A stretch of DNA of 32,472 bases from Candidatus Eiseniibacteriota bacterium (lineage in GTDB: Bacteria > Eisenbacteria > RBG-16-71-46 > CAIMUX01 > WJJG01), in contig JAGMBO010000103.1 of assembly GCA_023129715.1 (NCBI GenBank), positions 1 through 32,472 of the forward strand, given 5' to 3'. This document shows positions 4,704 to 32,472 of this stretch, in pieces. A program made the position numbers and the translations under genes. Numbering within the stretch: position 1 is the first letter of the stretch; each line of letters starts with the position of its first letter. Below the pieces are notes generated by a model. That model was not told where the DNA came from. It did no database searches and saw only the letters and a list, made by a program, of their open reading frames with translations.

Positions 4704-4716
4704 TCGAGAATTGAGG

Positions 4717-11694: not shown

Positions 11695-12951
11695 CTACTG
11701 CCTCATCTCGGCGATCTTCTTGATTGCCCGGTCCTGCATCTCCTGAGCCGCCGCGGCGGGCGTCAGCGCTCCGTTCCAGACGCTCTGGACCGCCGGACGC
11801 ATCGCATCCCAAATCGCCCGCATCTCCACGACGACCGGCATGCGCCGTCCGACTTCGACCTGGGCGATCGAGGCGCTCAAGACCGGGTCGCCGGCAATGC
11901 GCACGTCGTCGTAGGCCGCCCGCCGCGTCGGCAGAGTCCCCAGACGGGTGGCGAATTCGATCTGCGATTCGGTCGAGGTCACGAAGCGCAGGAAATCGAG
12001 CACGCGTGCCAGATGCTCCCCTTTCACCCGCTCGCTCACCGAGTAACCCTTCGAGGAAATCATCGGCCCCGGCCAGCGCCCAGTCTCCTCGATCCAGGGA
12101 ATGCGGGTGATCGCGAAGGGAATCCCCGCCTTGCGGTAGGCCGACAAGGACCAGGGCCCATTGATGATCATCGCCGCCCGGCCTTCCTTGAACATCGTGT
12201 CGGCCAACTCGTAGTCGCATTCACGAGGGATGACGCCATGCTCGTTACGCAGCGACGAGAGCAGCTCGAGTGCGCGCACCATCGCCGGGCTCGCGAGTGT
12301 CGGCCGGCCGGCGGCATCTATCACCCAACCCCCATAACCGGTCAGGAACGGAATCAGCCAGAACGGCTCACTGACGTCGAAAACCAGGCCGTAACGCTCC
12401 GGCGTGCCATCGCCGTCGGCATCGAGCGTGGCGGCCTCGGCCGCAGCGAGAAACTCCGCCATCGTCGCCGGCGCGGCATCGATGAGATCCTGATTGTAGA
12501 GCAGCGTGAGATGGTTGCCGAGTTGATCGGGCAAGGCCCACACGTGGCCATCCAGCGTGTCGAACGCCTCGGGGCGAAAACGCGCCAGTTCGTCGGCGGG
12601 AAAGATCTCGTCGATCGGGTGGATGAGCTTCATTACCGAGAACGGTCCCACCTGATCCGAAGGGCCGAAGACCAGATCGGGCCCCCCGCCCCCCAGCGCT
12701 GCCGTCTGGAACTGGGTGCGCACATCTTCGGTGTTGTAGTGCGCGACCTCGACCCGCGTGCCGGGATGGGCCGCCTGGTACTCGGCCACCAGAACATGCA
12801 GGATCTCGCGCTCCTCAGGGTCCATCTGCTCCCAGAGGGTGATCGTCTGATCTCCCCCACCACCACAACCGCCCAACAGAACGGAGGTACCGAGCAGGCA
12901 AACCACCGCACAGCAGGGCAGTCGCCATCGAAACGCAGGCAAACTGATCAT
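11695..12951 (-). CDS. Sugar-binding lipoprotein of ABC transporter, MalE type
   Basis: Extracytoplasmic solute-binding protein (family 1) of 418 residues that captures the sugar and delivers it to the permeases. It has a lipoprotein signal ending LLGGC with Cys29 as the acylation site. A Gly-rich tether and the mature fold follow: ITLWEQMDPEER, GPDLVFGPSDQVG, HVWALPDQLGNHLTLLYNQD, a Ca-like DADGDGTPERYG loop and KEGRAAMIINGPWSLSAYRKAG. The two-lobe order matches maltose/maltodextrin- and multiple-sugar-binding proteins. Lipid anchoring of the binding protein is normal in Gram-positives and found in some diderm phyla. The ATG overlaps the ATPase stop (ATGA at 12951-12948), and the MalF-type gene follows 12 bases downstream. 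Confidence 0.92.
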   Translation of the reverse strand: MISLPAFRWRLPCCAVVCLLGTSVLLGGCGGGGDQTITLWEQMDPEEREILHVLVAEYQAAHPGTRVEVAHYNTEDVRTQFQTAALGGGGPDLVFGPSDQVGPFSVMKLIHPIDEIFPADELARFRPEAFDTLDGHVWALPDQLGNHLTLLYNQDLIDAAPATMAEFLAAAEAATLDADGDGTPERYGLVFDVSEPFWLIPFLTGYGGWVIDAAGRPTLASPAMVRALELLSSLRNEHGVIPRECDYELADTMFKEGRAAMIINGPWSLSAYRKAGIPFAITRIPWIEETGRWPGPMISSKGYSVSERVKGEHLARVLDFLRFVTSTESQIEFATRLGTLPTRRAAYDDVRIAGDPVLSASIAQVEVGRRMPVVVEMRAIWDAMRPAVQSVWNGALTPAAAAQEMQDRAIKKIAEMRQ

Positions 12952-16665: not shown

Positions 16666-19600
16666 CTACTCCTTCGGCGGCCGCTCAGCCTCGAGCTGCA
16701 CGATCCGGAAGGTTCGTGCCTGCTCATCGAGCTCGAAGCGGTAGTCCCCGGCAGCCGGGAAGGCGACACTGATTGCCGTGCCCGTACCGCTTTCGCCGCA
16801 GGTGGCACCCGAAACCTCCCCCCCTTCGAACTGGAAGATGAAGTCTTCCCCGCCGTAGCTGTCGCAAGAACCATAGTCCAGCGGAACGTCCCACCACTGG
16901 TTCGTGCGGAACTTGAACTTCTGGGTCGACGCCGTGGCGACCGTTACCGTGTCGGCCCAGGAGCATCCCTCGACAAGGGTCGCGACCGTATTCACCCAGC
17001 CATTGAAATCGCCCAGCACCTCGATCGCGTACGATGGTGTGCAGGTCTCGGAGACTTCCAGCGTGATGCTGCCGACATCAGTCTCCTCATCGGCGGCGAC
17101 CTGGACGTCCGGAACGCTTCCCGCCTCGTAGCCATCGGCCTCGATCGTCAGGTCATAGACGCCGGCGGCGATGGTGATGCTGAAGGCACCGGACGTATCT
17201 GCGGTCGTCTGCGCCGCTACCTGGCTAGTCCCATTCAGCAGCGCCTTGATCGTTGCTGTCGGCGGATCGTCCGGGTGGTCTTCATAGGCCACCGTGCCGG
17301 TGATCGTTCCGAGCACGGCATCCTCGAGCAAGGTCACCCGAAAGGTCCCCGACGCCTCGTCGAGCCGGAACTCGTAGTCCCCAGTCTCGTAGAAGCGCAG
17401 AGTGATCGCGGTGCCCTCTCCAGCGACCGGGCAGACGCTTCCCGCCACGATGCCATCGACGAACGGAAGCACATCCGACTCGGACGTGCAGGTGCCGAGG
17501 TCTTGCGGAGTGTCCCAGTTTCGATTCGTCCGGAATTTCATCCGCAGATCCGCCGAATCGCCGGAGACCGAAACGGTCAGGGTGTCCGCCCAGAGGCAGG
17601 CATCGATCTCCATCATCGCCTCGGTCGGGTTCCAACCGTTGAACTCGCCGGGAATATCCATCGAGGTGTAAGCCGAGCTGCATCCGAGGCTCAAAGTAAT
17701 CGTGCCGATATCGGTATCCTGGCCGTTGACGAACTCAGTACCCGGCACCATCTCGGCCACATAGCCGGAGGCGGAGACCTCGATGTCGTACGTGCCCGTT
17801 GCCAGACCGGTGATCTCGAATGCGCCCGTCGCGTCGCTCGTATCGATTGCCACGGCCGAGGTGCCTCCCGCGGGGAAAACGCGAACCGTTGCCGTCGGCA
17901 AGGGCGAGGGGGAGTCTGAGAAGGCTACGGTGCCTAGCAGTGCACCACTAGTCGCAACCACGTCAAGCGTCCCGAGATCTCGTACCTCCTCGTCGTCCAA
18001 ACTGACATTGCTAACATGGGTATCGAGGTACCCGTCTGCGCGAATGATGATCTCGTAGGTCCCCGCGGGAAGATTGTCGATCAAGAACTCACCTGTGGCA
18101 GCGCTCGATTGCGCGACCGGTGCATCCTCCTCGATCGCAATCAAGTAGGAGGCGGAGTTGGTGCCTTCGAAGAGCAGTGCATGGTAGGTGCCGTCCTGCA
18201 GGACATCCGCTTGCAGATTGTTCCCCTCTCCCGATCCGATCTGTGTACTCCCGCTCAAGCCCTCTGTGCCCGCCGTAACGTAGTCGTTGTCCCATCCGGT
18301 GTCCGTGACGAACTTCCATTCGATCGTTCCATCATCGATTTCAATCTCATCTACCCAGGTGCATCCGCCCAGGTTGATCATGCCCGGATCGCTTGTCCAG
18401 AGTCCTGTGTCCCAATCGTTGAAGCTCCCCAAAATGTGAATCGTGCTGAAACCGGACGTGCAGGAACTGTTGTACCCCGCCAAGGCATAGATGACGGCCG
18501 CGGGGAGGTTGGGTCCTTCCTGGCCATCAAAAGTCAGCGTGCCAAACAACTCCGAAGATCCGACCGTGGGCTTCAGGAGAACAACCACCCCGATATCAGT
18601 ATCCTGGCCGTTGACAAACGCGACACCAGTCACCATCGCACCCGTATAGCCGACGGCTGAAACCTCGATGTCGTACGTGCCCGTTGCCAGATCGATGATC
18701 TCAAACGCGCCCGTCGCATCAGTCGTATCGGTCGCTACGACCGAGGTGTCACCTGAGGGAAGGATTCGAATCGTTGCCGTCGGCAAGAGTGAGGGTGAAT
18801 CTGAATAGGCCACCGTGCCAGTGAGCGCGCCATAGGCGCTGGTCAGCGTAGTCGTGCCGATGTCGGTCTCCGCATCGCCAAAGACCTGGACGTCCGCGAC
18901 GCTCCCCGAATCGTAACCGTCGGCCTCGATCGTCAGGTCATAGACGCCGGCCGCGATGTTGATAATAAAGACGCCCGCGGCATTCGTGGTAGCCTCGGCC
19001 GCCACCTGGCTGGTCCCAACATGAAACGCCTTGATCGCCGCTGTCGGCGGGTCGGCCGGATCGTCCTCATAGGCCACGGTGCCAGTGACCGTTCCGGGAA
19101 CTACATGCTCTAGCAAGATCACCTGGAAAGTCAGCGACGCCTCGTCGAGCTGGAACTCGTAGTCCCCGGTCTCATGGAAGCGCACGGTGATCCGTGTGCC
19201 CTCACCGGTGGACGGACAGACGCTTCCCGAGACTACGCCATCGACGAACAGAAGCACATCCGACTCGGACGTGCAGATGCCGAAATCTTGCGGACTGTAC
19301 CAATTTCGATTCGTCCGGAATTGCATCCCAAGATCCGCAGAATCGCCGGTGACCGATACGGTCAGGATGTCAGCCCAGAGACAGGCAGCAATTTCCGTCA
19401 TCCCTCCGGTCGGATTCCAATCGTTAAACTCTCCAGGAATGTCCATGGAAGTGTAGTCCGAACCGGGGCTCAAAGTGATTGTCCCGACATTCGCAAGCTG
19501 TCCATTGATGATCTCAACACCGGCTACGACTTGGTCCCGATAGCAAAAGACTGATACCTCGATGTCGTATGTGTCCGTCGCCAGGCCCCCGATCTCGAAC

Positions 19601-21117
19601 TCGCCCGTCACATCGGTCGTATCGGTCGCTACAGCCGAGATCCCACCCGAGAGGTATACCCGAACTGTCGCCGTCGGCGGATCGGCCGGGTCGTCTTCAT
19701 AGGCCACCGTGCCGGTGATCGTTCCGAGCACGGCATCCTCGAGCAAGGTCACCCGAAAGGTCCCCAACGCCTCGTTGAGCTGGAACTCGTAGTCCCCGGT
19801 CTCGTAGAAGCGCAGAGTGATCGCGGTGCCCTCTCCGGCGACCGGGCAGACGCTTCCCGCCACGATGCCATCGACGAACGGGAGCACATCCGACTCGGAC
19901 GTGCAGGTGCCGAGGTCTTGCGGAGTGTCCCAGTTTCGATTCGTCCGGAACTTCATCCGCAGATCCGCCGAATCGCCGGAGACCGAAACGGTCAGGGTGT
20001 CCGCCCAGAGGCAGGCATCGATCTCCGTCATCGCCTCGGTCGGGTTCCAACCGTTGAACTCGCCGGGAATATCCATCGAGGTGTAAGCCGAGCTGCATCC
20101 GAGGCTCAAGGTAATCGTGCCGATATCGGTATCCTGGCCGTTGACGAACTCGACATCAGTCACCGTCTCGTTCTCATAGCCAGAGGCTGAGAGTTCGATG
20201 TCGTACGTGTCCGTTGCCAGACCGGTGATCTCGAATGCGCCTGCCGCATCGGTCGTATCGGTCGCCACGGCCGAGGTGCCTCCCGCGGGGAGGACGCGAA
20301 CCGTGGCCGTCGGCAGGGGCGAGGGCGAGTCTGAAAAGGCCATCACGCCGCGCAGCGCACCACTGGCGCTGGTCACATTGATCGTCGCGAGATCGACCGC
20401 CTGCTTGCCGTCCAGGGTGACATTGCTGACATGGGTGTCGAGATACCCGTCCGCGCGAATGATGAGCTCGTAGGTCCCCGCGGGAAGATTGGCGATCGCG
20501 AACGCCCCCGTGGCGGTGCCCGATCGGGTGACGGGCGCATCCTCCTCGGCCGCGATCAAGTAGGACGCAGGGCTGGTGTCTTCGAAGAGCAATACATGGT
20601 ACGCGGCGTCCTGCAGGACATCCGCTTGCAGATTGTTTCCCTCTCCCGATCCGAGCTGTGTACTTCCGCTCAACCCATCTGTACCCGCCGTGACGTAGTC
20701 GTTGTTCCATCCGCCGTCCGTGACGAATTTCCACTCGATCGGTCCCGCCTCGAGTTCGATCTCATCGACCCATGTACACCCGCCCAGATTGGTCATGCCC
20801 GGATCGGTTGTCCAGAGCTCGGTGTCCCAGTCATTGAAGGTCCCCAAGATATGGATCGTGCTGAAGTCGGTCGCGCAGGCACCGCTGTACCCCGCAAGGG
20901 CGTAGATCAAGGCCTCGGGGAGGCCGGGGCCTCCCCCGCCATCGAAGGTCAGGGTGCCGGTCAGCTCCGAGGATCCTCCCGGTGGTTGCAGGATCGTGTT
21001 CTCCTCTGACTCATCGCAGGCAAGCATCGTCAGGGAAATGGCGACGAGCAGGGCGAGGAACCCGATCTCCACTGCGCTCGCGCCCATGGGTCCCCAAGTC
21101 ATTCCCCGGCTCAACAT
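16666..21117 (-). CDS. Giant modular lipoprotein with FNGW/FNDW glucan-binding-like and carboxypeptidase-regulatory-like repeats
   Basis: This 1483-residue protein has a lipoprotein signal (FLALLVAISLTMLAC, lipid Cys34). The mature part alternates two module types. One resembles glycogen-binding E-set/CBM48 domains, with IHILGTFNDWD and EWKFVTD in one subtype (twice) and MDIPGEFNGWNP and MKFRTNRNW in another (three copies plus a final variant VLGDFNGWVN). The other resembles carboxypeptidase regulatory-like domains, with GTVAYEDDPADPPTA, ATDTTDATGAFEI, LATGTYDIEVSASGY and VNGQDTDIGTITL. The arrangement repeats after 805 residues. No catalytic motif was seen, so a surface glucan-binding scaffold is the best inference. 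GAGGAG lies 8 bases before the ATG. It is the last of six co-directional genes. Asp follows the lipid Cys, which in E. coli would favour inner-membrane retention; the rule may not apply here. Confidence 0.85.
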   Translation of the reverse strand: MLSRGMTWGPMGASAVEIGFLALLVAISLTMLACDESEENTILQPPGGSSELTGTLTFDGGGGPGLPEALIYALAGYSGACATDFSTIHILGTFNDWDTELWTTDPGMTNLGGCTWVDEIELEAGPIEWKFVTDGGWNNDYVTAGTDGLSGSTQLGSGEGNNLQADVLQDAAYHVLLFEDTSPASYLIAAEEDAPVTRSGTATGAFAIANLPAGTYELIIRADGYLDTHVSNVTLDGKQAVDLATINVTSASGALRGVMAFSDSPSPLPTATVRVLPAGGTSAVATDTTDAAGAFEITGLATDTYDIELSASGYENETVTDVEFVNGQDTDIGTITLSLGCSSAYTSMDIPGEFNGWNPTEAMTEIDACLWADTLTVSVSGDSADLRMKFRTNRNWDTPQDLGTCTSESDVLPFVDGIVAGSVCPVAGEGTAITLRFYETGDYEFQLNEALGTFRVTLLEDAVLGTITGTVAYEDDPADPPTATVRVYLSGGISAVATDTTDVTGEFEIGGLATDTYDIEVSVFCYRDQVVAGVEIINGQLANVGTITLSPGSDYTSMDIPGEFNDWNPTGGMTEIAACLWADILTVSVTGDSADLGMQFRTNRNWYSPQDFGICTSESDVLLFVDGVVSGSVCPSTGEGTRITVRFHETGDYEFQLDEASLTFQVILLEHVVPGTVTGTVAYEDDPADPPTAAIKAFHVGTSQVAAEATTNAAGVFIINIAAGVYDLTIEADGYDSGSVADVQVFGDAETDIGTTTLTSAYGALTGTVAYSDSPSLLPTATIRILPSGDTSVVATDTTDATGAFEIIDLATGTYDIEVSAVGYTGAMVTGVAFVNGQDTDIGVVVLLKPTVGSSELFGTLTFDGQEGPNLPAAVIYALAGYNSSCTSGFSTIHILGSFNDWDTGLWTSDPGMINLGGCTWVDEIEIDDGTIEWKFVTDTGWDNDYVTAGTEGLSGSTQIGSGEGNNLQADVLQDGTYHALLFEGTNSASYLIAIEEDAPVAQSSAATGEFLIDNLPAGTYEIIIRADGYLDTHVSNVSLDDEEVRDLGTLDVVATSGALLGTVAFSDSPSPLPTATVRVFPAGGTSAVAIDTSDATGAFEITGLATGTYDIEVSASGYVAEMVPGTEFVNGQDTDIGTITLSLGCSSAYTSMDIPGEFNGWNPTEAMMEIDACLWADTLTVSVSGDSADLRMKFRTNRNWDTPQDLGTCTSESDVLPFVDGIVAGSVCPVAGEGTAITLRFYETGDYEFRLDEASGTFRVTLLEDAVLGTITGTVAYEDHPDDPPTATIKALLNGTSQVAAQTTADTSGAFSITIAAGVYDLTIEADGYEAGSVPDVQVAADEETDVGSITLEVSETCTPSYAIEVLGDFNGWVNTVATLVEGCSWADTVTVATASTQKFKFRTNQWWDVPLDYGSCDSYGGEDFIFQFEGGEVSGATCGESGTGTAISVAFPAAGDYRFELDEQARTFRIVQLEAERPPKE
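17281..17736. repeat. Long direct repeat, copy A (pairs with 19696-20151)
   Basis: These 456 bases inside the giant lipoprotein gene match 19696-20151 with only about nine differences by eye, at an offset of exactly 2415 bases (805 codons). The match starts and stops sharply. It encodes one FNGW-type module plus the borders of its neighbours (about residues 1128-1279). Confidence 0.88.
19696..20151. repeat. Long direct repeat, copy B (pairs with 17281-17736)
   Basis: Second copy of the 456-base near-identical segment, encoding about residues 323-474. The flanking modules are clearly more diverged than these two segments. That points to recent gene conversion or a recent duplication within an older modular protein. 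Confidence 0.88.
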
Positions 21118-21162: not shown

Positions 21163-21666
21163 CTACTCGACGATGACGATTGAGTTGAAGCCGCCATATC
21201 CGTCATCGGTTCGCTGCGGGTTGTTGGGATCCTCTTTCCAGTTTTGCTCGTCGACGATGAACTTGTACTGATAGCGTCCCGGCGGTAGATCGACGACGAT
21301 TCCCCACAGCCCATCTCCGTCGTCGTCATTCATCTCACCGATCCGAAAACTGCCCGTCTCGGCCTGACCGCCGCACCAGTTGTTCTCTTCCCAGCTGCCG
21401 CACAGCTGGACAACATGGGCCGAGGGCGCAGAGAACTGAAAGAGCACTCCCTTCTCAGTGCGTTGTGGTGGCGGCAAGCGCTTCTTGACGAAGCCGAGAT
21501 TGCCGCAGCCCGCCAACGCGAGCGTGAAGATGAGTCCCCAACCCATGAGCAGAAGCATGCCATACCGGCATGGCCGGATCCATCCACGCCAAACTCCGGC
21601 CCGTCCGCTTGGCGGTGCATCCAACATCCTTCCGGCGGAACCTGTTTGCCTATTCGGTGAGTTCAT
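21163..21666 (-). CDS. Small lipoprotein with a glycogen-binding (CBM48/E-set) domain
   Basis: This 167-residue protein has a long basic N-region, a hydrophobic stretch and the lipobox LALAGC (Cys54). A single isoamylase-N/CBM48-like domain fills the rest (about 73-167). It shows VLFQFSAPSAHVVQLCGSW, a DDDGDGLWGIVVDLPPGRYQYKFIVD core and the ending DDGYGGFNSIVIV. The last part is nearly the same as the C-terminal strand of the three CBM48 domains in the GH13 enzyme (DDGFGGQNSV). In this family the Trp of W-x-x-x-N-W and the KF-x-x-D-x-x-W strand stack against alpha-1,4-glucan. GGAGG lies 3 bases before the ATG at 21666. The gene lies 45 bases upstream of the giant lipoprotein and 140 bases after the CBM48-barrel gene, in one apparent operon. 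A surface glucan-binding role is inferred. Confidence 0.85.
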   Translation of the reverse strand: MNSPNRQTGSAGRMLDAPPSGRAGVWRGWIRPCRYGMLLLMGWGLIFTLALAGCGNLGFVKKRLPPPQRTEKGVLFQFSAPSAHVVQLCGSWEENNWCGGQAETGSFRIGEMNDDDGDGLWGIVVDLPPGRYQYKFIVDEQNWKEDPNNPQRTDDGYGGFNSIVIVE

Positions 21667-21806: not shown

Positions 21807-24047
21807 CTAGAAGCGCAGCACGGCCTGGAGTTGAATGCGGCGTTCCTCCTCGAGGGCCTGCTCGGCCCTCTGGATCAGCCGGCCCAGGTTGCGGAAGTTG
21901 GTCTCCGTCAGCCCAGCATGGGCGCCCTCCGCGAAGAGGAACGCGTCGCGGCCGACATAGGCGTACTCATTGACAGGATCATCGATCACATAAGGAGCCA
22001 CCCCGTAACCGAGCGAGAGCTCCACGCCCTCGGCGGGGGCATAGGCCAACTCGACGAATGAACACCGGAACGTGTCGTGCAAGTCGAGCACTGGATCGTC
22101 GTAGCGAGCGAGGCGGGTGTCGATCGACAGGCGCCATTCGGTTCCGACGTCGGTTCCGAGCTGGAAGATCGATTCGAAGTATTTTGGCTTCCGGTCGAAC
22201 CCCTCCCCTCCAAGAGTCGCCCGATAGCGGAAGTCGGCGTCGCGACGCTCGTTGAGTACGACAGAGACCTCCGGACGCCAGAGCAGCGCATCCCGCCCAC
22301 CGAGCAGGGTCATCCGTTCGAAGGAAACCTCGTGCTCGCCGTTCTCCAGCCAGAAGTTGCGCGTATCGAACCAGAACTGCGTGTCCCAGGGGGCGTTCTC
22401 GTCATAGTCGAAGTCGTGGTACTCGAGGGAGACGCCTGCCTCCATGCGACGACCGGACAAGGGACAATGGAATGCGCGCGGACGGAACTCGCCGCGCCAG
22501 ATCGAGGCCCGGTTCTCGATCGTCACATCGGCCTTGGTGGCCAGGGGATCGAGGTCATGCTTCTGGTATTCCCATGAGGCGGACCACCGGGCGCCGAGCA
22601 GGCCCCGCTCCCAGTCGAGACCGAGCCAGGCGCGCCGGCTGCAGTCCAACTCGAGGTCGAGCGAGATCTCACCGATCTCCTCGCCGTCGGTCAGGCGCGT
22701 AATCGACCCGATCAGGGAATCGCCGACCGAGGTGCTGGTAAGTTCGGCGTCCGTGATCGTGCCCGAGAAGCTCTCGATCGCCACCCGGCCATAGAGATAC
22801 TCGGCCGTGATAGTGAACCCCTCGGCCGGCTCGAAGAGGAGATCGCCACCATAGGCTTGCATGCGTTCGAAGGATGAACCATATTCGTAGAGCTTGCCCC
22901 GACTGCGTGTCGTATCGGCGGGATCGACCTCGAATATCGTCAGGGCACCTGAGTTGAACCCGCGATTGAGACGGTACGAAACCCCAACGCGCCAATGCCT
23001 ACCCCGGAAGTCGAAGGGCCGCTTCAGGCGTAACCCAAGCACATCCATCGCGTTATCCGTATTGTTCCACATGTAGTGGAGGATCCGCCCCCGGGAGAAC
23101 CCGAGACTGTCTTCCCCCGTGATCAGCGTGTTCTCGGGAGTCACGATCAGATCGGCGTCGATCGATGGATGCTCGCTACCGCCGGTGGCGAAGTCGTCAC
23201 TGTAGAACACCTCGCCCTCGACACCATAGAACTGCTTGCGAATCCTAGCACCCACCGTTTCGTAACCGTATTGATGATGGTAGATCCCAACATCTCCGAC
23301 CAAATGGAGAGGATCATCCCAGGTTCCAATCGCCTCGTTGTCCCAGGCTTTGACGTTGATCGTCGGATTGTCTAGGGTCAATGAGCCGCGATCGAAGTTC
23401 AGACGCGTTTCATAGAATTCCACATTCTCCGCTTCGTTGCTGATGTTCGTCAGGATATGCGCCTGCAGGTCCTCGTTGATCCGGATCTGAAAATCGATGT
23501 CCACGTCCAGGCTTGGACGCTGTAGCTCGTAGCGCCCCTCGCGAGACTCCATCTTCTCGGAAATGTAAAGACCGATCGCCCGTCCACTGATCCACATTTT
23601 GGGACTCAATGCCGTATTCGACGTTGCCCGCATCTGCTGCAGAGTTCCCCCGGCCGCCACCGTAACGGCCGAGTTTCCATAATCCCCGACTGTCACCGGA
23701 TTATCCGGATCACCGATCCACTGACCGTCGACGATGAACTTGTACTCGTACTCGCCTGCTTCCAGCGCAACGGTCACCGACCAAGTATCGCCCGCACGTG
23801 TCATCTGCGCGGCGGTCGTCGACCAATCGTTGAAGCTTCCTGCCAAGTAGACCTGTCGGGCGGTAGCGTCGACATAGGTGAAGCGGATACCCTCTTCCGT
23901 CGCATCCGGGGGGGCGGCAGAAGCCATGGAGGCTCCCAGCAGGATCCCCATTCCGGCGGCCATCAAGAGATCGCCCCACCGGCGCAGAGGCCACCGGCCG
24001 GCGCCGTGGATCCGCCTATCGGACGGATGTCGCTGAGGCGTTTTCAT
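21807..24047 (-). CDS. Outer-membrane beta-barrel with N-terminal glycogen-binding (CBM48) domain
   Basis: This 746-residue protein has a signal peptide (LLMAAGMGILLGASMASA, cleavage near residue 44). A CBM48/E-set domain follows at about 50-131 (VYLAGSFNDWSTTAAQM ... YEYKFIVDGQWIGDP). The remaining ~600 residues alternate short amphipathic strands with aromatic girdles and charged turns, and end in aromatic Phe (QLQAVLRF), as outer-membrane barrels do. The combination suggests a pore or surface protein that binds alpha-glucan. The domain could lie in the periplasm or outside; topology cannot be read from sequence. The ATG shares a base with the stop of the upstream barrel gene (TGATG), with AGGGGA 7 bases upstream, so the two are translationally coupled. 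It is not related to SusC/TonB receptors: no plug domain or TonB box is visible. Confidence 0.85.
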   Translation of the reverse strand: MKTPQRHPSDRRIHGAGRWPLRRWGDLLMAAGMGILLGASMASAAPPDATEEGIRFTYVDATARQVYLAGSFNDWSTTAAQMTRAGDTWSVTVALEAGEYEYKFIVDGQWIGDPDNPVTVGDYGNSAVTVAAGGTLQQMRATSNTALSPKMWISGRAIGLYISEKMESREGRYELQRPSLDVDIDFQIRINEDLQAHILTNISNEAENVEFYETRLNFDRGSLTLDNPTINVKAWDNEAIGTWDDPLHLVGDVGIYHHQYGYETVGARIRKQFYGVEGEVFYSDDFATGGSEHPSIDADLIVTPENTLITGEDSLGFSRGRILHYMWNNTDNAMDVLGLRLKRPFDFRGRHWRVGVSYRLNRGFNSGALTIFEVDPADTTRSRGKLYEYGSSFERMQAYGGDLLFEPAEGFTITAEYLYGRVAIESFSGTITDAELTSTSVGDSLIGSITRLTDGEEIGEISLDLELDCSRRAWLGLDWERGLLGARWSASWEYQKHDLDPLATKADVTIENRASIWRGEFRPRAFHCPLSGRRMEAGVSLEYHDFDYDENAPWDTQFWFDTRNFWLENGEHEVSFERMTLLGGRDALLWRPEVSVVLNERRDADFRYRATLGGEGFDRKPKYFESIFQLGTDVGTEWRLSIDTRLARYDDPVLDLHDTFRCSFVELAYAPAEGVELSLGYGVAPYVIDDPVNEYAYVGRDAFLFAEGAHAGLTETNFRNLGRLIQRAEQALEEERRIQLQAVLRF

Positions 24048-25645
24048 CAGAACGTCCCCTTGATGATGAACTTGAGGAGGTCGCGATTGTCTTCGCTTCC
24101 TGCCAGGTCGCCGTCCTCCACGGGGTTTGGCGAATCCCCGATCCAGCTGGGACCATACTCCAGGAAGACCTCCATGTTGCCCTGCGGGCGATACTGGAGC
24201 TGCGCGAAGAGCCCCTTGCGGAGGCGTGCCGGGTCGTTGCCGAACGCGTAACGCCCGTAGAGCTTCAGCTTGTCGGTCAGGTTAAGCGTGCTTTCCAGCG
24301 ACGCCAGGTCTTTGCGTCGGGACGAGTTGAAATCCTTGAGCTTGACTTGAACTCGCATCCAGGCGAGCTGGCTCTCTACCTGGATTTCGAGGAAGAGATC
24401 GCGATTTACTTCGATGAGAACCTCCCTGGGATCCCACCGATTGCGATCCTTCCGATCCGAGTAGAAAACCTTAGAAGTGAAACCATTGACATATTCAGTA
24501 TAAACTTCTGCGTACACTTCTGTTGAATGTCGGCTCTGATACACGAGATTCTCCGAACTCGTGTAGTTGAGCGTGAGGGTAATTGCTCTCTGAGGAAGAA
24601 GGTACCAGGTGTTGATCCACACTCCCTGTTGATCACGCGATGCCTCACCAAGTCGGTTGGCGAAGTTCGGCCCGAAATACCAGAAGGTCGGCACTATGTT
24701 GTAGTAACCGAGTCTCGGCGTTCCCAAAGTGAGGGAGCGAATCTCTCCCTTCAGTGCACCATCTCGCGGCAGCCAGCGGTACAGGCGATGAAGGTTGAAG
24801 TCCTTCAACCTGAGGCCACTCTCTTCGTGATCAGGATTCTGGTGGGAGTACGTATCGGCGTACTCGAGGAAGATGTCAGTCATACCAATCGAGTAGCGCG
24901 CATCGACGGCAAGCACACCCAGATGGCGCGGCTCACCTTCCGGAAGTTCGACCAAGCGGTTGTACGTCATCCCCAGGCGTAGATGATTGCCGAAGAATTC
25001 CTTCCGCAATCGCGCGACATAGGCATCGTCCGTCCGGGCAGTCTCTCCCCCCTCACCAGGATTCCAGCTCTGACTACTGAAGTCGCTGGCAATACATGTC
25101 AGTTTCGCACCGCCAAGTCCCCAGATGTCTACGCGAACCCCCTGGGCGTTGCCGTTATCGGTAAGTTCCCCTGCCTCAACGACTCCAATGAGATGATTCT
25201 CTACCCAGAAACGGTCCTGGCGATGGAACAAGTAGGTGTCAGCGCCGGAGTTCCCACGATCCCAACGGTAGCGGAGGTGGCTCTCACGATACTGATAAAA
25301 CGGCCTCCGGCCGCTATTGTGGTCTTTGTTCCAGCCGGCTTCGAATTTGGCGAACACCTCTGTATTCGGATACGGCACTGAGAATAGGCGGAAGTGGTTT
25401 CCCAACCAGGTCTCAGGGTGATTCGAATCGTAATTCCATTCGTACTTGCGATCGTCCTCCCGGCGGATGTCGAGCATGAGTTGATACTCGCCTTCGAGCT
25501 TGGTCAATCCATAGGCGGCCGTCGGCTCAGTGAGAGTCAGCGCTATCACCCAGAACAGCAGTCCGGGCAAAGCCAGTTTTGCTAGCCCCCGGCGCACGAT
25601 GTCACCGAAAAGACGCGCCGGCCTCCTGCGTCTTCGTCCCGCCAT
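24047..25645 (-). CDS. Outer-membrane beta-barrel protein, family not recognised
   Basis: This 532-residue protein has an Arg-rich N-terminus (AGRRRRRPARLFG), a hydrophobic signal (LALPGLLFWVIALTLTEPTAAYG) and then only beta-strand-like sequence. Examples of the alternating aromatic strands are EGEYQLMLDIRRE, HFRLFSVPYPNTEVFAKFEAGW, TDIFLEYADTYSH, MEVFLEYGPSW and the ending KFIIKGTF with C-terminal Phe. It is probably a barrel that partners the CBM48 barrel, since their genes are coupled by a TGATG overlap. Both may form pores, or this one may be an assembly partner. I do not recognise a named family. The start at 25645 is 4 bases after the stop of the PorV-like gene; the frame is open further upstream but overlaps that gene. 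The ribosome site is weak. Confidence 0.75.
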   Translation of the reverse strand: MAGRRRRRPARLFGDIVRRGLAKLALPGLLFWVIALTLTEPTAAYGLTKLEGEYQLMLDIRREDDRKYEWNYDSNHPETWLGNHFRLFSVPYPNTEVFAKFEAGWNKDHNSGRRPFYQYRESHLRYRWDRGNSGADTYLFHRQDRFWVENHLIGVVEAGELTDNGNAQGVRVDIWGLGGAKLTCIASDFSSQSWNPGEGGETARTDDAYVARLRKEFFGNHLRLGMTYNRLVELPEGEPRHLGVLAVDARYSIGMTDIFLEYADTYSHQNPDHEESGLRLKDFNLHRLYRWLPRDGALKGEIRSLTLGTPRLGYYNIVPTFWYFGPNFANRLGEASRDQQGVWINTWYLLPQRAITLTLNYTSSENLVYQSRHSTEVYAEVYTEYVNGFTSKVFYSDRKDRNRWDPREVLIEVNRDLFLEIQVESQLAWMRVQVKLKDFNSSRRKDLASLESTLNLTDKLKLYGRYAFGNDPARLRKGLFAQLQYRPQGNMEVFLEYGPSWIGDSPNPVEDGDLAGSEDNRDLLKFIIKGTF

Positions 25646-25649
25646 CGCC

Positions 25650-26591
25650 CTACCACCGCCTCTTCCCAAATGGCACTCGCAAAGAAACCTCATAGGAAGC
25701 GCCCAGGTCGTCGTGCGTAATGAAGGCAACATCCACAAGATAGTGTCTGGTCCGTAATCCGGCGCCTCCGGAGAACTGTCCTGCCGAGAACCCCGTACGC
25801 AGCCCGAAGACTTCAAAGAACCAGACTTCCGTCCCGGCATGCAGTGCCCAGTCACCCCGGAAGTCCCGATCCGCCGAGAGCGCAAACAGCGCCGCCGGCT
25901 TCCACTGGTATGCCAGGCCGAAATCATGAGTCCGTCGAATCTGCGTACCGCCACCACCGTCCACGAACTCGAAGCTCGGCTGATTCACGTTTCGGACGAC
26001 ATAACTCCACGCCATCTTCCGCGTTGGATTGACAAGAACTCCAATGTCACCAGTGAGATGGTATTCCCGGCCATAGTCCTGCTCTGCACGGGCAACATAA
26101 CCTACATGTGCCAGCTTGAGAGCTCCCCCGATCGCCACCGCGAAAGAACTTCCCGGGGGCAGCAGGTCCCGGGCAATGCCTAACGACACCATGTCCTCTC
26201 CGACAACATCTGCAACGCCAGTATGGTGCCAGCCGAGGCCGAGAGAAAACGCATCGCGCGGAACGGCCAAGGCGACGTAGTTCTCCTGAAGATTCTCGAT
26301 CAGAAAAGGCTTGGTGTACATGAAGAGTACCTCGGACCGGGGCAGGGTGACCAAGGCAGCAGGATTCCAGTGTGTGGCCGAGGCATCACTTGCGATTGCA
26401 GAATAGGCTTTCCCCAGTGCCGTGCTCCGTGCACCGGCCTGAGAGCGCTCGAAGTAGGCAAACGCTGGCGACACCAATCCACGAATGCCCAGAACGCACA
26501 TCAGTGCAATGGCAATACCACAACGGTTCCAGAACCCGTGCGGAACCAGTGCTACCCTCACCGAGCGTGATTCCCGCAGGTTCTCTCCCAT
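25650..26591 (-). CDS. PorV/PorQ-like outer-membrane protein
   Basis: This 313-residue protein has an exported N-terminus (IAIALMCVLGIRGLVSPAFA) followed by ERSQAGARSTALGKAYSAIASDASATHWNPAAL. This is the signature of the PorV/PorQ (UPF0164) family, FadL-like barrels that in Bacteroidetes work with type IX secretion. The remainder is regular barrel sequence (FSLGLGWHHTG, SFAVAIGGALKLAHVGY, HDFGLAYQWKPAALFALSAD, ASYEVSLRVPFGKRRW). In FCB candidate phyla these proteins are abundant and may shuttle FlgD-tailed proteins, such as its neighbour at 26612-27898, to the surface. The start at 26591 has AAGGA about 9 bases upstream. The gene lies 20 bases after the FlgD-tailed gene. Family confidence is good; the secretion role is inferred. 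Confidence 0.82.
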   Translation of the reverse strand: MGENLRESRSVRVALVPHGFWNRCGIAIALMCVLGIRGLVSPAFAYFERSQAGARSTALGKAYSAIASDASATHWNPAALVTLPRSEVLFMYTKPFLIENLQENYVALAVPRDAFSLGLGWHHTGVADVVGEDMVSLGIARDLLPPGSSFAVAIGGALKLAHVGYVARAEQDYGREYHLTGDIGVLVNPTRKMAWSYVVRNVNQPSFEFVDGGGGTQIRRTHDFGLAYQWKPAALFALSADRDFRGDWALHAGTEVWFFEVFGLRTGFSAGQFSGGAGLRTRHYLVDVAFITHDDLGASYEVSLRVPFGKRRW

Positions 26592-26611
26592 CTTGCCATT
26601 CCTTCGTCGCA

Positions 26612-27898
26612 CTAGCGTACCACCGAAAACGCCCGTGAATAGCGATCGAGATTCGGCCCAGAGACAACGCTCAGAATGTAGATGCCTCCTGGGACCATCC
26701 GCCCGCGCATGTCGCGCCCGTCCCACTGATCCTCTTCCCAGCGTCGGCCCGACAGAATCTCAAGCACATTCCGCATTTGGTCACGGTAGAGTACGCAAAC
26801 CAGATTCCCCAAGCTATCATAGATGCGGGCAGTCAACTTGACCGTACGGAAATCCTGGCTCGCCGAGATCTTGGGGCCCATGTTCAGAGCGAACCGCAGC
26901 GGTATGCTTTCTTCAGGAGAGACAACCGGAGAATCGAAAACGAGGTCCTCGAATTCAAAGACAATCCCCTTGATCGGTGGCCGTCGCTTGAAACCTAATC
27001 GCGCCCGGGGCTTGATGCCGAAGTCGGGCACGTGGTCGACCGCGTCCCCCCCATCGAGCGGCAGGATCACGAAATTGTCGATCAACACTTGCTCCGAACC
27101 CTCAACCACGTGACCGCTGAAGTTATCGGGCGCAGAATCTGGCCCTCCGGTCCCGTCATCGCCACCGGTGATCACCGCGGCGAATCGCAGCGTATCCATG
27201 CCTTCGGGAACTCCCCAGACATCCGCGCGTAGCGTCTCGCTGGCCACTTGTTCAGATTGTTCGAAGAAAAGGATCCCCCAGGGGATGGCTGCTTCCATCG
27301 CGCGCCGCGAGGCTGTCTGCCGGAAGGTGGCCACAGCGCTGAACTGATCGGACCCGATCTGTTCCAAGACTGGATCTCGATTGGTGGCATAACGCCAAAG
27401 CTGGGGAAGTGAGTTCCCATCCCAGGTCGCCAGGAAGAGGTCGGGGGTGAAATCGCTACTGAAAACGAAATTCCTTCTCCAAGAAGTTAGCTCGGTCATG
27501 CCCCCCATACCGTCATCAGCGCTCGAAGTGGGACTCCAGTTAGTGACATCGAAGAACAAGATCACATTGTTGCCGTGGTCGCCGTCTCCGATGTAGCCAT
27601 CCAAGGCGACATAGAGAAAGTCCTTGTCCCAGGTGATCTTGATCTGATTGACGTCGTTGAACGGGCCCCACTTGGAATCCTGGGTGGACTCCTCGAGCAG
27701 GGCACGCTCTTCATTGAGGAAGAAGACGGCTTCACTATCGGCGAAGTCGGCCGAGAAACCGTCGATTTGGATGCGGTTGGAGAGATCCAGATCGGTCGCG
27801 CCGAATGCCGGTAGACCGAGGCTGCCGGCTAAGATGAGCAGGCCCAGCAGCAGGCCCCCGGCGCGTAGCTTCCTCATCCCTGATCCCGCCTCTCCCAT
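26612..27898 (-). CDS. Secreted protein with CBM9/DOMON-like domain and FlgD-like C-terminus
   Basis: This 428-residue protein, first gene of the six-gene envelope operon, has a signal peptide (RKLRAGGLLLGLLILAGSLGLPAFG). The body (IQIDGFSADFADSEAVFF ... NQIKITWDKDFLYVALDGYIG ... NVILFFDV) resembles CBM9/glucodextranase-type carbohydrate-binding sandwiches. The C-terminus (TARIYDSLGNLVCVL ... WDGRDMRGRMVPGGIYILSVV) is a FlgD/Ig-like tail that probably anchors or sorts the protein. Both domain types also occur in the protein at 14385-16409. The ATG at 27898 is chosen because GGAGG lies exactly 7 bases upstream; the frame is open to 27958, and a shorter start at 27877 is also possible. The promoter upstream is good. 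No catalytic residues were identified, so a binding role is inferred. Confidence 0.8.
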   Translation of the reverse strand: MGEAGSGMRKLRAGGLLLGLLILAGSLGLPAFGATDLDLSNRIQIDGFSADFADSEAVFFLNEERALLEESTQDSKWGPFNDVNQIKITWDKDFLYVALDGYIGDGDHGNNVILFFDVTNWSPTSSADDGMGGMTELTSWRRNFVFSSDFTPDLFLATWDGNSLPQLWRYATNRDPVLEQIGSDQFSAVATFRQTASRRAMEAAIPWGILFFEQSEQVASETLRADVWGVPEGMDTLRFAAVITGGDDGTGGPDSAPDNFSGHVVEGSEQVLIDNFVILPLDGGDAVDHVPDFGIKPRARLGFKRRPPIKGIVFEFEDLVFDSPVVSPEESIPLRFALNMGPKISASQDFRTVKLTARIYDSLGNLVCVLYRDQMRNVLEILSGRRWEEDQWDGRDMRGRMVPGGIYILSVVSGPNLDRYSRAFSVVR

Positions 27899-28167
27899 TC
27901 CTGCGCCTCCAGGACCGCCGACCAATCCCACCTTGCGGCTTCCGTGGCACGGGAGCATGCGGGTACTATAGGGGCCGCATCAGGCCATCGCAAGCCTGAC
28001 CGTCACGAGAGCACCAGAAGGAGGGGCTCGGCCGCGGGGCTGCTGGTGCTGGTAGCGACATGAGGGTCTAGCGCGGGGTTCTCGAGCCCCACGGCGCCGC
28101 ATGCCCAAGATGCACGCAGGGAGACCTCCCGGCGGTCTGCCGGGGCAAAGGGAAGGAGAACGTCAAG
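27899..28167. promoter_or_regulatory. Divergent control region between envelope operon and GH13 gene
   Basis: These 269 bases carry the minus-strand promoter listed separately. They also hold an inverted repeat AGCACCAG (28010-28017) with CTGGTGCT (28043-28050), and a short hairpin gggagacctccc just before the GH13 ribosome site. A shared regulator for the two divergent units is plausible. No clear plus-strand -35/-10 pair was found. Confidence 0.6.
27965..27993 (-). promoter_or_regulatory. Sigma-70-like promoter of the six-gene envelope operon
   Basis: On the minus strand TTGCGA (27993-27988; four of six match TTGACA) is followed after exactly 17 bases by TATAGT (27970-27965; five of six match TATAAT). 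It lies about 65 bases before the first ATG of the operon, a normal leader length. Confidence 0.7.
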
Positions 28168-31100
28168 ATGCAATCCTTCGATATCGCACGACGGAGCTGG
28201 GGCCTCACCTCCACGAAGCCGCCCCGCGGGAGAGCCGCCCGTGGAGCGACATCGATCTCGGCGGGTCTCCTGACCGTGGCGCTCGTCGCCTGGGTGCTGA
28301 CGCCGGCCAGCCCCGCCCATGCGGATGAGGTCACCTTCATCTTCGAACCCCCTCAGACTGCGAGCAGCGTCTTCCTGGCCGGAAGTTTCAACGGTTGGTC
28401 TTCCACCCAAGACCGGATGAGCGATGCAGACGGCGACGGGGTCTACGAACTCACCCTCGATCTCGCCCCGGGACGCTATGAATACAAGTTCGTCGCCGAC
28501 GGCAACTGGCAGACCGACGAGTCGGCCCAAGAGTTCTCCGACGACGGGTTCGGCGGACGCAACGCCATCGTCTGGGCCGGCGAGAAGCCGGCCGATGCCG
28601 CGCCGCCACCGATCACCCAACCCACCAGCACCGCGACGGGGGCGGGTGTGGCGGTGACCTTCTCCCATCGCCCGAGCGGATCGCCGCAGAATATCTACCT
28701 TGCCGGCACCTTCAATGCTTGGGCGGCCGATCGCGATCGGATGACCGATGCTGACGGCGACGGTACGTTCGAGTTGACGCTCGAGCTGGCTCCCGGACGC
28801 TACGAGTACAAGTTCGTCGTCGACGGTAACTGGACCACGGACATGAAGGCGGGCGCCTTCGGGCCCGACGGCTTCGGTGGCCAGAACTCGGTCGTCGTGG
28901 TCGGGGAAGGCGGCGTGATCCCCGCCGCGGGCGCTGGAGCTGGAGCCGCAGCCGGAGCCGAGGAACCCGAGGGGCCGCCGGCCGAGGGCCTCTTCCAGGT
29001 AACCTTCTCCCACCGGCCGGGAGCCACCCCGGGAAATATCGTGCTCGCCGGAACGTTTAACGACTGGTCGACGACCGCAACACCGATGAGCGACGCGAAT
29101 GGAGACGGCACCTACGAGACCACTTTGATTCTGCCGGGCGGCACATATCAGTACAAGTTCGTCATCGACGGCAACTGGACACCCGATCCGCAGGCGACCC
29201 GCACAGCGGATGACGGCTTCGGCGGACAGAACTCGGTCATCCGGGTCGACGGACGCTTCGACAAGATCGATCTCGCCGTCGGCGACGGGAAGATCTCGAC
29301 GAAGGGCATCGTCCACTCCCAGACGATTGCCGAGCGCAACATGCTCTCCGATTCGGAAGTCGTCTTCCGCACGCGCGCCTACCGCGGCGACATCGAGGCG
29401 CTCGAACTCGCCTGGAGCTCCAATGGCGACTGGACGCGCATCCCGATGCACAGCCTCACTCACGATGCGGCCTTCGACTACTACGAAGGACGCATCACGG
29501 CCGACGGCCCGCTGCCGGCCCTCGAGTACGCCTTCATCTACCAGGATGGTGATCGCGAGCTATGGTTGACCCCTGCGGGGTTCGGAGAGCCGGGCGGCGC
29601 GGTCCGTGGATTCGAGCTCGATCCCGCCACTGTCGAGCGCATCCACGCGCCGGAATGGGTCCGTGACGGGATTTTCTACCAGATCTTCCCCGAGCGCTTC
29701 GCCAACGGAGAGAGGTCGAACGATCCCGACTTCAAGGAGTGGTACTACGAAGGTCACACGCGGCTGCCGCGCGTGGGAACATTCGATGGAGAGTACTACC
29801 ATCTGATCAAGGACTGGTACGACGTGGCGGGCCTGAGCAAGAGCCCCTACCGCTCCGACGGCAAGCCCGATTGGTTTTCCTTCTACGGCGGCGACATCCA
29901 GGGGGTGATGGAGAATCTCCCCTATCTACGCGACCTCGGAATCACGATCATCTACTTCAATCCGATCTTCGCGGCCCGCTCGAGCCACAAGTATGACGCG
30001 GCCGACTACCGCAAGGTCGACCCGCACTTCGGCGGCAACGAGGTCTTCACCCGCTTTGTCGAGCGCGCCCACGAGGAAGGCATCCGGATCGTTGTCGACG
30101 TCGTCTTCAATCACTGCGGCGACACCCACTGGGCGTTCCAGGACTGTGTCAAAAACGGGCCCGACTCGGAGTACTGGCATTGGTTCGAGTGGAAGCGCTG
30201 GCCGCTGCCCGACCCCACCCCACCCGACTACAAACCTGATCAGTACTATGCCTGCTGGTGGGGCTTCGGCAGCCTGCCCGACTTCAACCTCGATCTTTCC
30301 CGTCCCAACCCGGACGAGAATGCAATTCGTGACATCGCCCAGGCACAGCCGAACATGGATGTCGTCGACTATCTGCTTGAGACGACCCGCTTCTGGCTCG
30401 AGACTTTCGATGTCGACGGGTTCCGACTCGATGTGCCCAACGAGTGTCCTCCCTGGTTCTGGAAGCTCTTCGTCGAGGAGGTGCGCAAGACCAAGCCCGA
30501 CGCCTACATCGTCGCCGAGCTGTGGGGCGACGCCTCGGCGGAGATCGGGCCTGAGATGTACGACGCTACGATGAACTACCGCTACTTCCGCGACCCGGTC
30601 CTCGAGTGGATCGCGCGTGGCCAAGGCACGGCGCACGACTTCGACCTCGCCTTGGCGCCCGGGCGCTCGGTCTACGCGCCGCAGTCCCAGCAGGTGATGA
30701 TGAACCTGATGGGCAGCCATGACACCGAGCGGGTCCTGACGGTCGCCGCGGGAGACACTCGGCGCCTCAAGCTGGCCGCCCTCTTCCAGATGACCTATGT
30801 CGGCACGCCTCACATCTACTACGGAGACGAGATCGCCATGGCGGGAGGCGGAGACCCGGATTGCCGGCGGCCCTTCTACTGGAAGTGGGAGAAGGAGGAT
30901 CCGCGCCGGGACGTCCACGACCACTACCGCAAGCTGATTGCCCTGCGCCAGGAACTGCCGGCACTGCGCCGGGGCGCCTTCCAGACCCTGCTCGCCCAGG
31001 GCCAGATCTATGCCTATCTACGCACATACCGGGACGAGCCGGTCCTGGTGGTCATGAACAACTCCGCCCGGGCGGTCGAGACCGAGATCTCCTTGGCCGA

Positions 31101-31230
31101 CGCCCCCTGGATGGATCCGCAAGTTACGTTCGTAGACCAACTTGACGGGACCGTCCTGCGCACCGCGCGGGATGCTCTGCGCGTGCCCTTGGGGCCGTTC
31201 ATGGGACGGATCCTCAAAGTGGAGGAGTAG
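28168..31230 (+). CDS. Secreted GH13 alpha-amylase-family enzyme with three tandem CBM48 domains
   Basis: This 1020-residue enzyme is predicted to hydrolyse alpha-glucans; its GH13 core is closest to neopullulanase/cyclomaltodextrinase sequences. After a signal peptide (to about residue 52) come three CBM48/E-set domains at about 54-137, 160-247 and 276-361. Each carries an FNGW/FNAW/FNDW motif and a YKFV-x-DGNW strand, and Ala/Gly/Pro-rich linkers separate them. A CBM34-like domain (375-490) and the barrel (FYQIFPERFANGERSNDP onward) follow. Catalytic signatures are complete: DVVFNH from 644, nucleophile Asp755 in DGFRLDVPNE, acid/base Glu784 in IVAELWGD, and His851-Asp852 in MGSHDTER. AAGGAG lies 9 bases before the ATG. 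It is divergent from the envelope operon and probably digests polymer outside or in the periplasm for the MalEFGK-type importer. The exact product specificity cannot be read. Confidence 0.95.
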   Translation: MQSFDIARRSWGLTSTKPPRGRAARGATSISAGLLTVALVAWVLTPASPAHADEVTFIFEPPQTASSVFLAGSFNGWSSTQDRMSDADGDGVYELTLDLAPGRYEYKFVADGNWQTDESAQEFSDDGFGGRNAIVWAGEKPADAAPPPITQPTSTATGAGVAVTFSHRPSGSPQNIYLAGTFNAWAADRDRMTDADGDGTFELTLELAPGRYEYKFVVDGNWTTDMKAGAFGPDGFGGQNSVVVVGEGGVIPAAGAGAGAAAGAEEPEGPPAEGLFQVTFSHRPGATPGNIVLAGTFNDWSTTATPMSDANGDGTYETTLILPGGTYQYKFVIDGNWTPDPQATRTADDGFGGQNSVIRVDGRFDKIDLAVGDGKISTKGIVHSQTIAERNMLSDSEVVFRTRAYRGDIEALELAWSSNGDWTRIPMHSLTHDAAFDYYEGRITADGPLPALEYAFIYQDGDRELWLTPAGFGEPGGAVRGFELDPATVERIHAPEWVRDGIFYQIFPERFANGERSNDPDFKEWYYEGHTRLPRVGTFDGEYYHLIKDWYDVAGLSKSPYRSDGKPDWFSFYGGDIQGVMENLPYLRDLGITIIYFNPIFAARSSHKYDAADYRKVDPHFGGNEVFTRFVERAHEEGIRIVVDVVFNHCGDTHWAFQDCVKNGPDSEYWHWFEWKRWPLPDPTPPDYKPDQYYACWWGFGSLPDFNLDLSRPNPDENAIRDIAQAQPNMDVVDYLLETTRFWLETFDVDGFRLDVPNECPPWFWKLFVEEVRKTKPDAYIVAELWGDASAEIGPEMYDATMNYRYFRDPVLEWIARGQGTAHDFDLALAPGRSVYAPQSQQVMMNLMGSHDTERVLTVAAGDTRRLKLAALFQMTYVGTPHIYYGDEIAMAGGGDPDCRRPFYWKWEKEDPRRDVHDHYRKLIALRQELPALRRGAFQTLLAQGQIYAYLRTYRDEPVLVVMNNSARAVETEISLADAPWMDPQVTFVDQLDGTVLRTARDALRVPLGPFMGRILKVEE

Positions 31231-31556
31231 CGGGGCCTATGCCCCCCCGGGATGGATGCACCCGGCAACCACCCCGCGGAGCGAACGCATGCCGCAACAG
31301 CCCCCCGGGACGAATGCACTCGTCCGGCCGGCCCCCCGGAGCCGGCTAGGCCCCCCCCGAGCCGGCCGGCTCCGGGGGAGGGCTCGTACAAGCCCCGGCC
31401 GACTAGTCCTCGCTTTGTAAGCCCTCGCCTGGTATCATGTTAAAGGCATTACAGCAGGCAACCCATCGCGGGTTCCATGCATCGTGGATGTGCCAGAGAG
31501 GCAGCGTCGTATCGGCACCTGCGTGCGCTCTGGTCGCAGTTAGAGGAGGAGGCATC
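31231..31556. other. Intergenic region after the GH13 gene
   Basis: This 326-base region holds the terminator below and the leader of the next gene. Highly skewed C- and G-runs fill 31241-31400. No gene is supported. Confidence 0.5.
31333..31378 (+). terminator. Strong GC hairpin, probable terminator of the GH13 gene
   Basis: CCCCCGGAGCCGGC (31333-31346) and GCCGGCTCCGGGGG (31365-31378) form a perfect 14-base-pair stem about 100 bases after the GH13 stop. No T-run follows, so it may be factor-dependent or a barrier protecting the mRNA end. Confidence 0.55.
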
Positions 31557-32472
31557 ATGAGGTTCGCTACGGTCATGTTGGGGGTGTTCGGATTGATCGT
31601 CCTGCTCACCTCCCCGGTTTCTGCACAGTACTACGCGCGGGGCGGCCACTATGGCGACGGCTGGCCGGCCGACGCCGGCAACCAGCTCAATGACGATGGT
31701 CTCAATGGTGACGCGATGGCCGGCGATGGCATCCACTCCGGCTATGTAACCTCGGACAAGGTGGCCGGGGACTATGAGTTCAAGATCGCCGTCGAGGATT
31801 GGTCTGAGAACTACCCGGCCAGCAATGTCCCCATCCGCCTGACCTCGGACAACCAGGTCATCTTCTTCAGCCTCAATACCAATCTCATCGAGGATGGCTG
31901 CGTCCCGACGCAGTACATCGTCTGGTCGGACGCCATCCGGGTGGGAACGACCTGGAGCGTGGTCGGCAGCGCCGCGGAGCTGGGTGGCTGGGATCTTCCA
32001 TCGGCCCCCCAAGCCTCGGAGGACGGTGGTCTCTGGACACTGAGTGTCGACTTCGCCGCCGGCGGTGACTACGAGTACAAGTGGGTCGCCGATCTGGACT
32101 GGGGATTCCAGCAAGTCGGTAGCGACGGTTTCGGCAACAATACATGGGGCATCCAACTGCACCTCGATGACGCTGCCACCGTCGTCTTCACCCTCGATCT
32201 CTCCGTCCCGCGCGCCTGCCATGAGGCTCTCGTGCCCACCGAGATGAGCCTGTGCGAGGCGACGTTGCTCGACGGCGACTACTTCCCGGTCCACTACGAC
32301 GAGTGGGTGCACATCACCTCGCCGCTGTTGATCCTCAACGATGACGGCACGTTCTCCTCGGGCAACGTCGATGCCGGCGCGACCGACGGTGAGTGCTGCG
32401 TTTGTCTGTTCGACTTCAATGTCACCGACGTGCTGATGGCGGGTGACCTGGTCGACGTCATCGGAACGGTCG
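31557..32472 (+). CDS. Secreted protein with pullulanase X25-like and starch-binding modules (3' end outside window)
   Basis: The frame is open from ATG 31557 to the window end (305 residues seen). A GAGGAGGAGG ribosome site ends 4 bases before the ATG. The signal peptide is RFATVMLGVFGLIVLLTSPVSA. Residues after about 25 form a first module (GLNGDAMAGDGIHSGYV ... GDYEFKIAVEDWSENYP) that resembles the X25-type module of amylopullulanases. A second module (TWSVVGSAAELGGWDLP ... GDYEYKWVADLDWGFQQVG) is another starch/glycogen-binding-like domain. Unusual Cys pairs (ECCVCLFDF) appear near the end of the visible part. The downstream part, and any catalytic or sorting domain, are outside the window. 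It follows the GH13 gene on the same strand and fits the same alpha-glucan locus. Confidence 0.8.
   Translation, partial: MRFATVMLGVFGLIVLLTSPVSAQYYARGGHYGDGWPADAGNQLNDDGLNGDAMAGDGIHSGYVTSDKVAGDYEFKIAVEDWSENYPASNVPIRLTSDNQVIFFSLNTNLIEDGCVPTQYIVWSDAIRVGTTWSVVGSAAELGGWDLPSAPQASEDGGLWTLSVDFAAGGDYEYKWVADLDWGFQQVGSDGFGNNTWGIQLHLDDAATVVFTLDLSVPRACHEALVPTEMSLCEATLLDGDYFPVHYDEWVHITSPLLILNDDGTFSSGNVDAGATDGECCVCLFDFNVTDVLMAGDLVDVIGTV

Follow-up and report, generated by a model that had tools for sequence, protein, structure and literature searches.

A CBM48 domain fused to an outer-membrane barrel belongs to a conserved, SusD-free and probable alpha-glucan uptake locus of uncultured bacteria

The protein examined here, in which a CBM48 domain precedes a large outer-membrane barrel, is encoded in a conserved glucan locus with several barrels that occurs far beyond its own phylum. 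This locus probably serves many uncultured bacteria for the uptake of starch-like glucans, in place of the SusC/SusD machinery known from gut Bacteroidetes. The window, by which we mean the whole stretch of DNA analysed (32,472 nucleotides from a Candidatus Eiseniibacteriota bacterium), is one entire contig of a draft genome. Most of what is understood about glycan uptake across the outer membrane comes from SusCD and small sugar porins. The locus brings together parts whose joint occurrence we have not found reported, and it recurs in numerous families of bacteria beyond the window's phylum. The architecture, its conservation, the order of the genes, the absence of SusD and the plug-free nature of the barrel, as given below, were each computed directly.

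The protein and its two domains lie in the window as follows.

21807..24047, minus strand: CBM48-barrel protein, 746 aa (from the ORF call, Pfam and AlphaFold2)
23649..23906, minus strand: CBM48 domain, residues ~48-133
21810..23600, minus strand: barrel region, residues 150-746

From its N-terminus the protein passes from a presumed signal peptide (residues ~1-44) to the CBM48 domain, a linker and the barrel, and it ends in a C-terminal Phe. The N-terminus is signal-peptide-like as judged by eye, with a hydrophobic stretch followed by an AxA site; the CBM starts only a few residues past it, and the linker between the CBM48 and the first barrel strand is also short (~16 residues). The FNDW and YKFIVDGQW motifs by which the initial annotation had recognized a CBM48-like domain were located at residues 72-75 and 102-110. 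Two Pfam families match this region above their gathering cut-offs, namely AMPK1_CBM (PF16561, residues 62-126, E=1.3e-16, 61 bits against a cut-off of 26.8) and CBM_48 (PF02922, residues 50-112, E=1.8e-8, 35 bits against 22.4), and a CBM match is present in 16 of 16 homologues as well. The nearest solved structures are the glycogen-binding domains of AMPK beta-1 and beta-2 (E=1.5e-13). Across 35 aligned homologues the CBM is the best-conserved portion of the protein; W75 is found in all 35, K103 in 94%, N125 in 91% and W110 in 89%, and these four we take, from established knowledge of AMPK beta, to be the residues of AMPK-type glucan contact. On this sequence evidence, the domain is probably a binder of alpha-1,4-glucan.

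The barrel region itself (150-746) has no match in Pfam, NCBIfam or the sequences of the PDB. An AlphaFold2 model calculated from a 16-row homologue alignment (mean pLDDT 78.5, pTM 0.68) shows a beta domain resembling a CBM and, after it, ~22 antiparallel strands that reach residue 745; when this model was used in a fold search of the PDB, the top 50 matches were all outer-membrane barrels. Most of them are TonB-dependent transporters, and the TM-scores are low (0.23-0.36). By these models the fold class, that of an outer-membrane barrel, is secure, and the assignment to any family is not. The hallmarks of such a barrel are present together: a signal peptide, an even number of antiparallel strands and a C-terminal aromatic residue, the terminal Phe column being invariant across the alignment of 35 homologues. 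The earlier claims of a barrel-like C-terminal part of about 600 residues ending in Phe, and of a CBM48 fused to a true outer-membrane barrel, are thus borne out by the Pfam matches, the AlphaFold2 model and the PDB fold matches. We read the strand count by hand as 22 (range 22-24), because the short strand at 321-327 was counted as loop; on the register of the alignment with the neighbouring barrel described next, it falls in a loop.

Directly around the barrel gene lie genes whose products would be expected in the cell envelope, and beyond these lie genes for glucan breakdown and import.

21163..21666, minus strand: small CBM48 lipoprotein, with a lipobox LAGC and then an FVKKRLPPP motif
24047..25957, minus strand: second large barrel, 24 strands modelled (likely start 25645, 532 aa)
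25650..26726, minus strand: PorV/FadL-like barrel (likely start 26591; NF033709)
26612..27958, minus strand: 448-aa secreted protein of a conserved family, with a weak C-terminal FlgD-like Ig match
16666..21117, minus strand: 1483-aa secreted protein with a putative lipobox MLAC and CBM48/X25-like domains alternating with carboxypeptidase-regulatory repeats
28168..31230, plus strand: secreted GH13, neopullulanase/maltodextrin glucosidase-like, with three N-terminal CBM48
31407..32472, plus strand: further secreted glucan-binding protein with X25 and CBM20 matches, cut by the contig end
12948..14273, minus strand: MalK/UgpC-type ABC ATPase
11695..12951, minus strand: MalE-like maltodextrin-binding protein
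10798..11682, minus strand: MalF-type ABC permease
9959..10840, minus strand: MalG-type ABC permease

The order in the window is thus the 448-aa secreted protein, the PorV-like barrel, the 24-strand barrel, the CBM48-barrel and the CBM48 lipoprotein, beyond which come the CBM48/carboxypeptidase-regulatory protein and, farther off, MalK-E-F-G; the GH13 gene is divergent to the barrel operon. An association with alpha-glucan had been suspected from the sequence, and it is strengthened by the GH13 or GH57 enzymes with CBM48, the MalEFGK importer and the CBM48 lipoproteins that adjoin the barrel. The 24-strand barrel is a distant paralogue of the CBM48-barrel (hhalign probability 92%, E 7.6e-7, over the N-terminal ~200 columns), and the two genes overlap by 1 nt. 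Like the CBM48-barrel, it belongs to no Pfam family. Its AlphaFold2 model (pLDDT 83.0, pTM 0.75) was read as 24 strands in which connections of 2-4 residues alternate with mostly longer ones, and its best PDB fold matches are the 24-strand ushers (TM 0.51). The PorV/FadL-like barrel scores 48.8 bits (E=7.1e-13) against NF033709, which is under the curated cut-off of 90 bits and denotes a relative of that family rather than a member. For the 448-aa protein, Pfam yields nothing beyond the weak FlgD-like Ig match, and a CBM9/DOMON-type resemblance was seen by eye only. In the 1483-aa protein the CBM48/X25-like and carboxypeptidase-regulatory blocks are nearly duplicated. Between this gene and the Mal genes, an ORF called at 14319-16292 (minus) is probably spurious, as the opposite strand (14268-16409, plus) codes for a protein of 713 aa that carries Big_5 and FlgD-like Ig domains and relatives of which recur at a similar place in other loci. 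To the left of the glucan locus, and outside it, the window also holds a group II intron (4627-6388, minus) with a reverse transcriptase/maturase ORF (4717-6195) and RNA domains matching RF02001, RF01998 and RF00029, as well as genes for a Fic-domain protein (1452-2792, plus) and for a secreted protein with a von Willebrand A domain (6588-8168, minus).

The homologue search for the full-length architecture that the initial annotation had proposed as a check found it in dozens of genomes. Within the window's phylum, of which 47 genomes were covered, full-length relatives share 35-52% identity, and there is one divergent clade besides. A profile of the barrel was also built without the CBM and searched against 385 genomes; it matched in 36 of these, 19 of them outside the phylum, in 14 families, and every match outside the phylum carries an N-terminal CBM48. 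Because the query held no CBM, the fusion is an independent result of this search, in which no relatives of the barrel without a CBM were seen except the 24-strand paralogue. Mostly one CBM48 copy stands ahead of the barrel, with two in L133 and L136 and four in L142. The carriers include Candidatus Hydrothermota bacterium B29_G16, with a protein of 608 aa (L145), in a group of which 11 of 60 genomes carry the CBM48-barrel. Several trivial explanations can be set aside: chance similarity is ruled out by the E-values together with the recurrence of the full architecture across dozens of genomes, the presence of the same architecture in dozens of independent genomes rules out a fusion through misassembly or frameshift, and the idea of an oddity confined to one genome is rejected. 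An origin in Bacteroidota was likewise rejected, as CBM48 matches there were found only on three-CBM proteins or amylases, and the barrel profile came back empty in the searched Bacteroidota genomes behind them; mobile spread was rejected as well, since phage and plasmid collections gave no match.

The gene block is conserved along with the protein, in the core order PorV-like barrel, 24-strand barrel, CBM48-barrel and CBM48 lipoprotein. The barrel protein bears its CBM48 in 35 of 35 loci, and a CBM48-coding gene lies immediately downstream in all 34 loci with sequence on that side (31 by automatic call, with those of L071, L130 and L131 in merged or longer ORFs). Upstream, the 24-strand barrel was called automatically in 31/34 loci, the ORFs overlapping in two of the three loci without a call (L070, L073), and a PorV-like gene is present in 26/29. 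Of the 20 loci that span 18 kb or more, 17 have GH13, GH57 or Mal genes; in 9/35 loci, several of which are on short contigs, no amylase and no Mal genes were found. Several lineages have GH57-CBM48 in place of GH13 and keep the barrel block (L074, L075, L076, L067, L129, L130 and L136). When the 24-strand barrel served as the query, 38 genomes matched, and 33 of these are among the 36 genomes with the CBM48-barrel; in four further genomes with strong matches (G014, G118, G259 and G316) a CBM48 ORF adjoins the 24-strand barrel, that of G014 being cut by the contig end, and the fifth is a marginal match. The two barrels are therefore nearly inseparable in the genomes sampled.

Both modelled barrels read as having an even number of strands and their short connections share the side of the C-terminus, and because of these two features the CBM would be placed on the periplasmic side, within ~16 residues of the pore. 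The initial annotation had pictured the CBM as an externally exposed gate, and this placement, drawn from the loop pattern and the even strand counts, speaks against that picture; its further suggestion that the domain concentrates or threads glucan at the pore may still hold, from the periplasmic mouth rather than as a gate at the surface. An outward CBM48 that collects glucan before it enters a porin has some attraction, in that surface glycan-binding proteins are standard in Sus-type systems (PMC7618045), the CBM is conserved for binding, and the aromatic-rich loops at residues 548-585, which are conserved and on the presumed outer side, could cooperate with it; we nonetheless regard it as unlikely, since the short turns on the C-terminus side and the even strand counts put the N-terminus in the periplasm. 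About equally improbable, in our estimation, is a CBM48 that occupies the lumen of the barrel in the manner of the N-terminal plug of TonB-dependent transporters. Twenty-two strands with an N-terminal globular domain is indeed the layout of those transporters, which are the top fold matches, and the short linker would suit such an arrangement, but neither the plug family PF07715 nor the TonB-receptor Pfam family is matched in 16 homologues, and two or four CBM48 repeats (L133, L136, L142) would be hard to fit in a lumen.

The periplasmic CBM48 is the basis of the scheme that we favour, in which a conserved locus acquires alpha-glucan with the CBM48-barrel as its CBM-bearing channel, and we hold this scheme as a whole to be rather more probable than the alternatives taken together. 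Either or both of the large barrels would let alpha-glucan (starch, glycogen or maltodextrin) cross the outer membrane, and there the aromatic-rich outer loops could guide the chain. The CBM48 on its ~16-residue linker at the periplasmic mouth would bind the emerging alpha-1,4-glucan and so favour inward movement, a ratchet-like capture which, like the direction of transport and the formation of a complex, we infer from the arrangement of domains and genes. The CBM48-barrel, its 24-strand paralogue, the PorV-like barrel and the CBM48 lipoprotein probably form one envelope complex, to which the lipoprotein would supply extra binding sites. Chains would then be cut by the secreted CBM48-GH13 or CBM48-GH57, of which the GH13 could be either surface-released or periplasmic, and the resulting maltodextrins would be imported by MalEFGK. 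An unplugged barrel of 22-24 strands would leak, and so some factor must close it. A bolder form of the proposal, which we put forward only tentatively, is a TonB-independent importer in which long chains pass through paired barrels of 24 and 22 strands and are drawn inward through binding by periplasmic CBM48s, of which each channel has one to four, with the lipoprotein in addition, and in which digestion takes place inside the envelope. The locus would then fill the place of Sus in many uncultured phyla. Transport in the opposite direction, in which the locus would secrete or display proteins or alpha-glucan with the CBM48 as recognition tag or chaperone, is the least probable reading and we give it little credence: the neighbouring barrel's closest fold is that of the 24-strand pilus ushers, the PorV-like gene recalls the role of such proteins in type IX secretion and CBM48 occurs on many proteins of the locus, but the MalEFGK importer and amylases are co-located, the CBM48 ligand residues are retained, and the usher likeness is only one of strand number, at ~10% identity.

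Should the proposed function be true, it would explain how these uncultured bacteria feed on starch or glycogen, and it would raise the question of whether binding domains alone can drive polymer import without TonB energy. As to novelty, our literature search covered open-access work, and in that scope we found no account of a CBM48-barrel fusion or of the locus that contains it; a paper on Fibrobacter mentions CBM48 only on GH9 enzymes. The barrel is also without a Pfam, NCBIfam or PDB match, in agreement with the initial annotation, to which no described family of this architecture was known, and the conserved, SusD-free locus around two large barrels is apparently undescribed.

The system most nearly comparable is the Sus/SusCD utilisome of Bacteroidota (e.g. 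for levan or dextran), in which a barrel, glycan-binding lipoproteins and a glycoside hydrolase are likewise brought together in one uptake locus, and in which surface glycan-binding proteins are the rule (PMC7618045). Unlike it, the locus described here has an unplugged barrel, a CBM48 fused to that barrel and its own MalEFGK ABC importer, and SusD was found in none of 27 carrier genomes, with a positive Bacteroides control. Plug domains occur elsewhere in the genomes of most carriers, none lie inside the carrier loci among the matches listed, and in the whole draft genomes of two carriers (G075 and G358, 94% and 88% complete) no TonB plug domain was detected. Other large outer-membrane barrels are present in these two genomes. 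Maltoporin LamB and the sugar porins resemble the CBM48-barrel as outer-membrane channels proposed for maltodextrins alongside MalEFGK, but LamB has 18 strands whereas the CBM48-barrel has ~22 and bears a CBM48, and neither it nor its 16 homologues match the LamB family in Pfam at E<=0.1. Membership in the SusCD or maltoporin systems was rejected on these grounds (no SusD, no plug and no LamB match). TonB-dependent transporters such as Fiu, OprC and BtuB share the large barrel with an N-terminal globular domain and provide the best fold matches (TM to query 0.26-0.36, which is low), but in the protein described here CBM48 replaces the plug, and there is no family match. The chaperone-usher pores FimD and PapC have 24 strands, as does the neighbouring barrel at 24047-25957 (TM 0.51), but that barrel has no usher family match and ~10% identity, and no chaperone or pilin genes were seen. 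PorV-like proteins, to which the third barrel is related, serve secretion in type IX systems. The CBM9-DUF5916 proteins of Bacteroidota also place a carbohydrate-binding-like N-terminal domain before an outer-membrane barrel; they differ in CBM family, and the Pfam scans gave no DUF5916 match. Finally, the N-terminal domain is akin to the glycogen-binding domain of AMPK beta, and to CBM48 generally, in its sequence and its ligand residues, but whereas the usual partner of such a domain is a kinase subunit or a GH13 enzyme, here it is an outer-membrane barrel.
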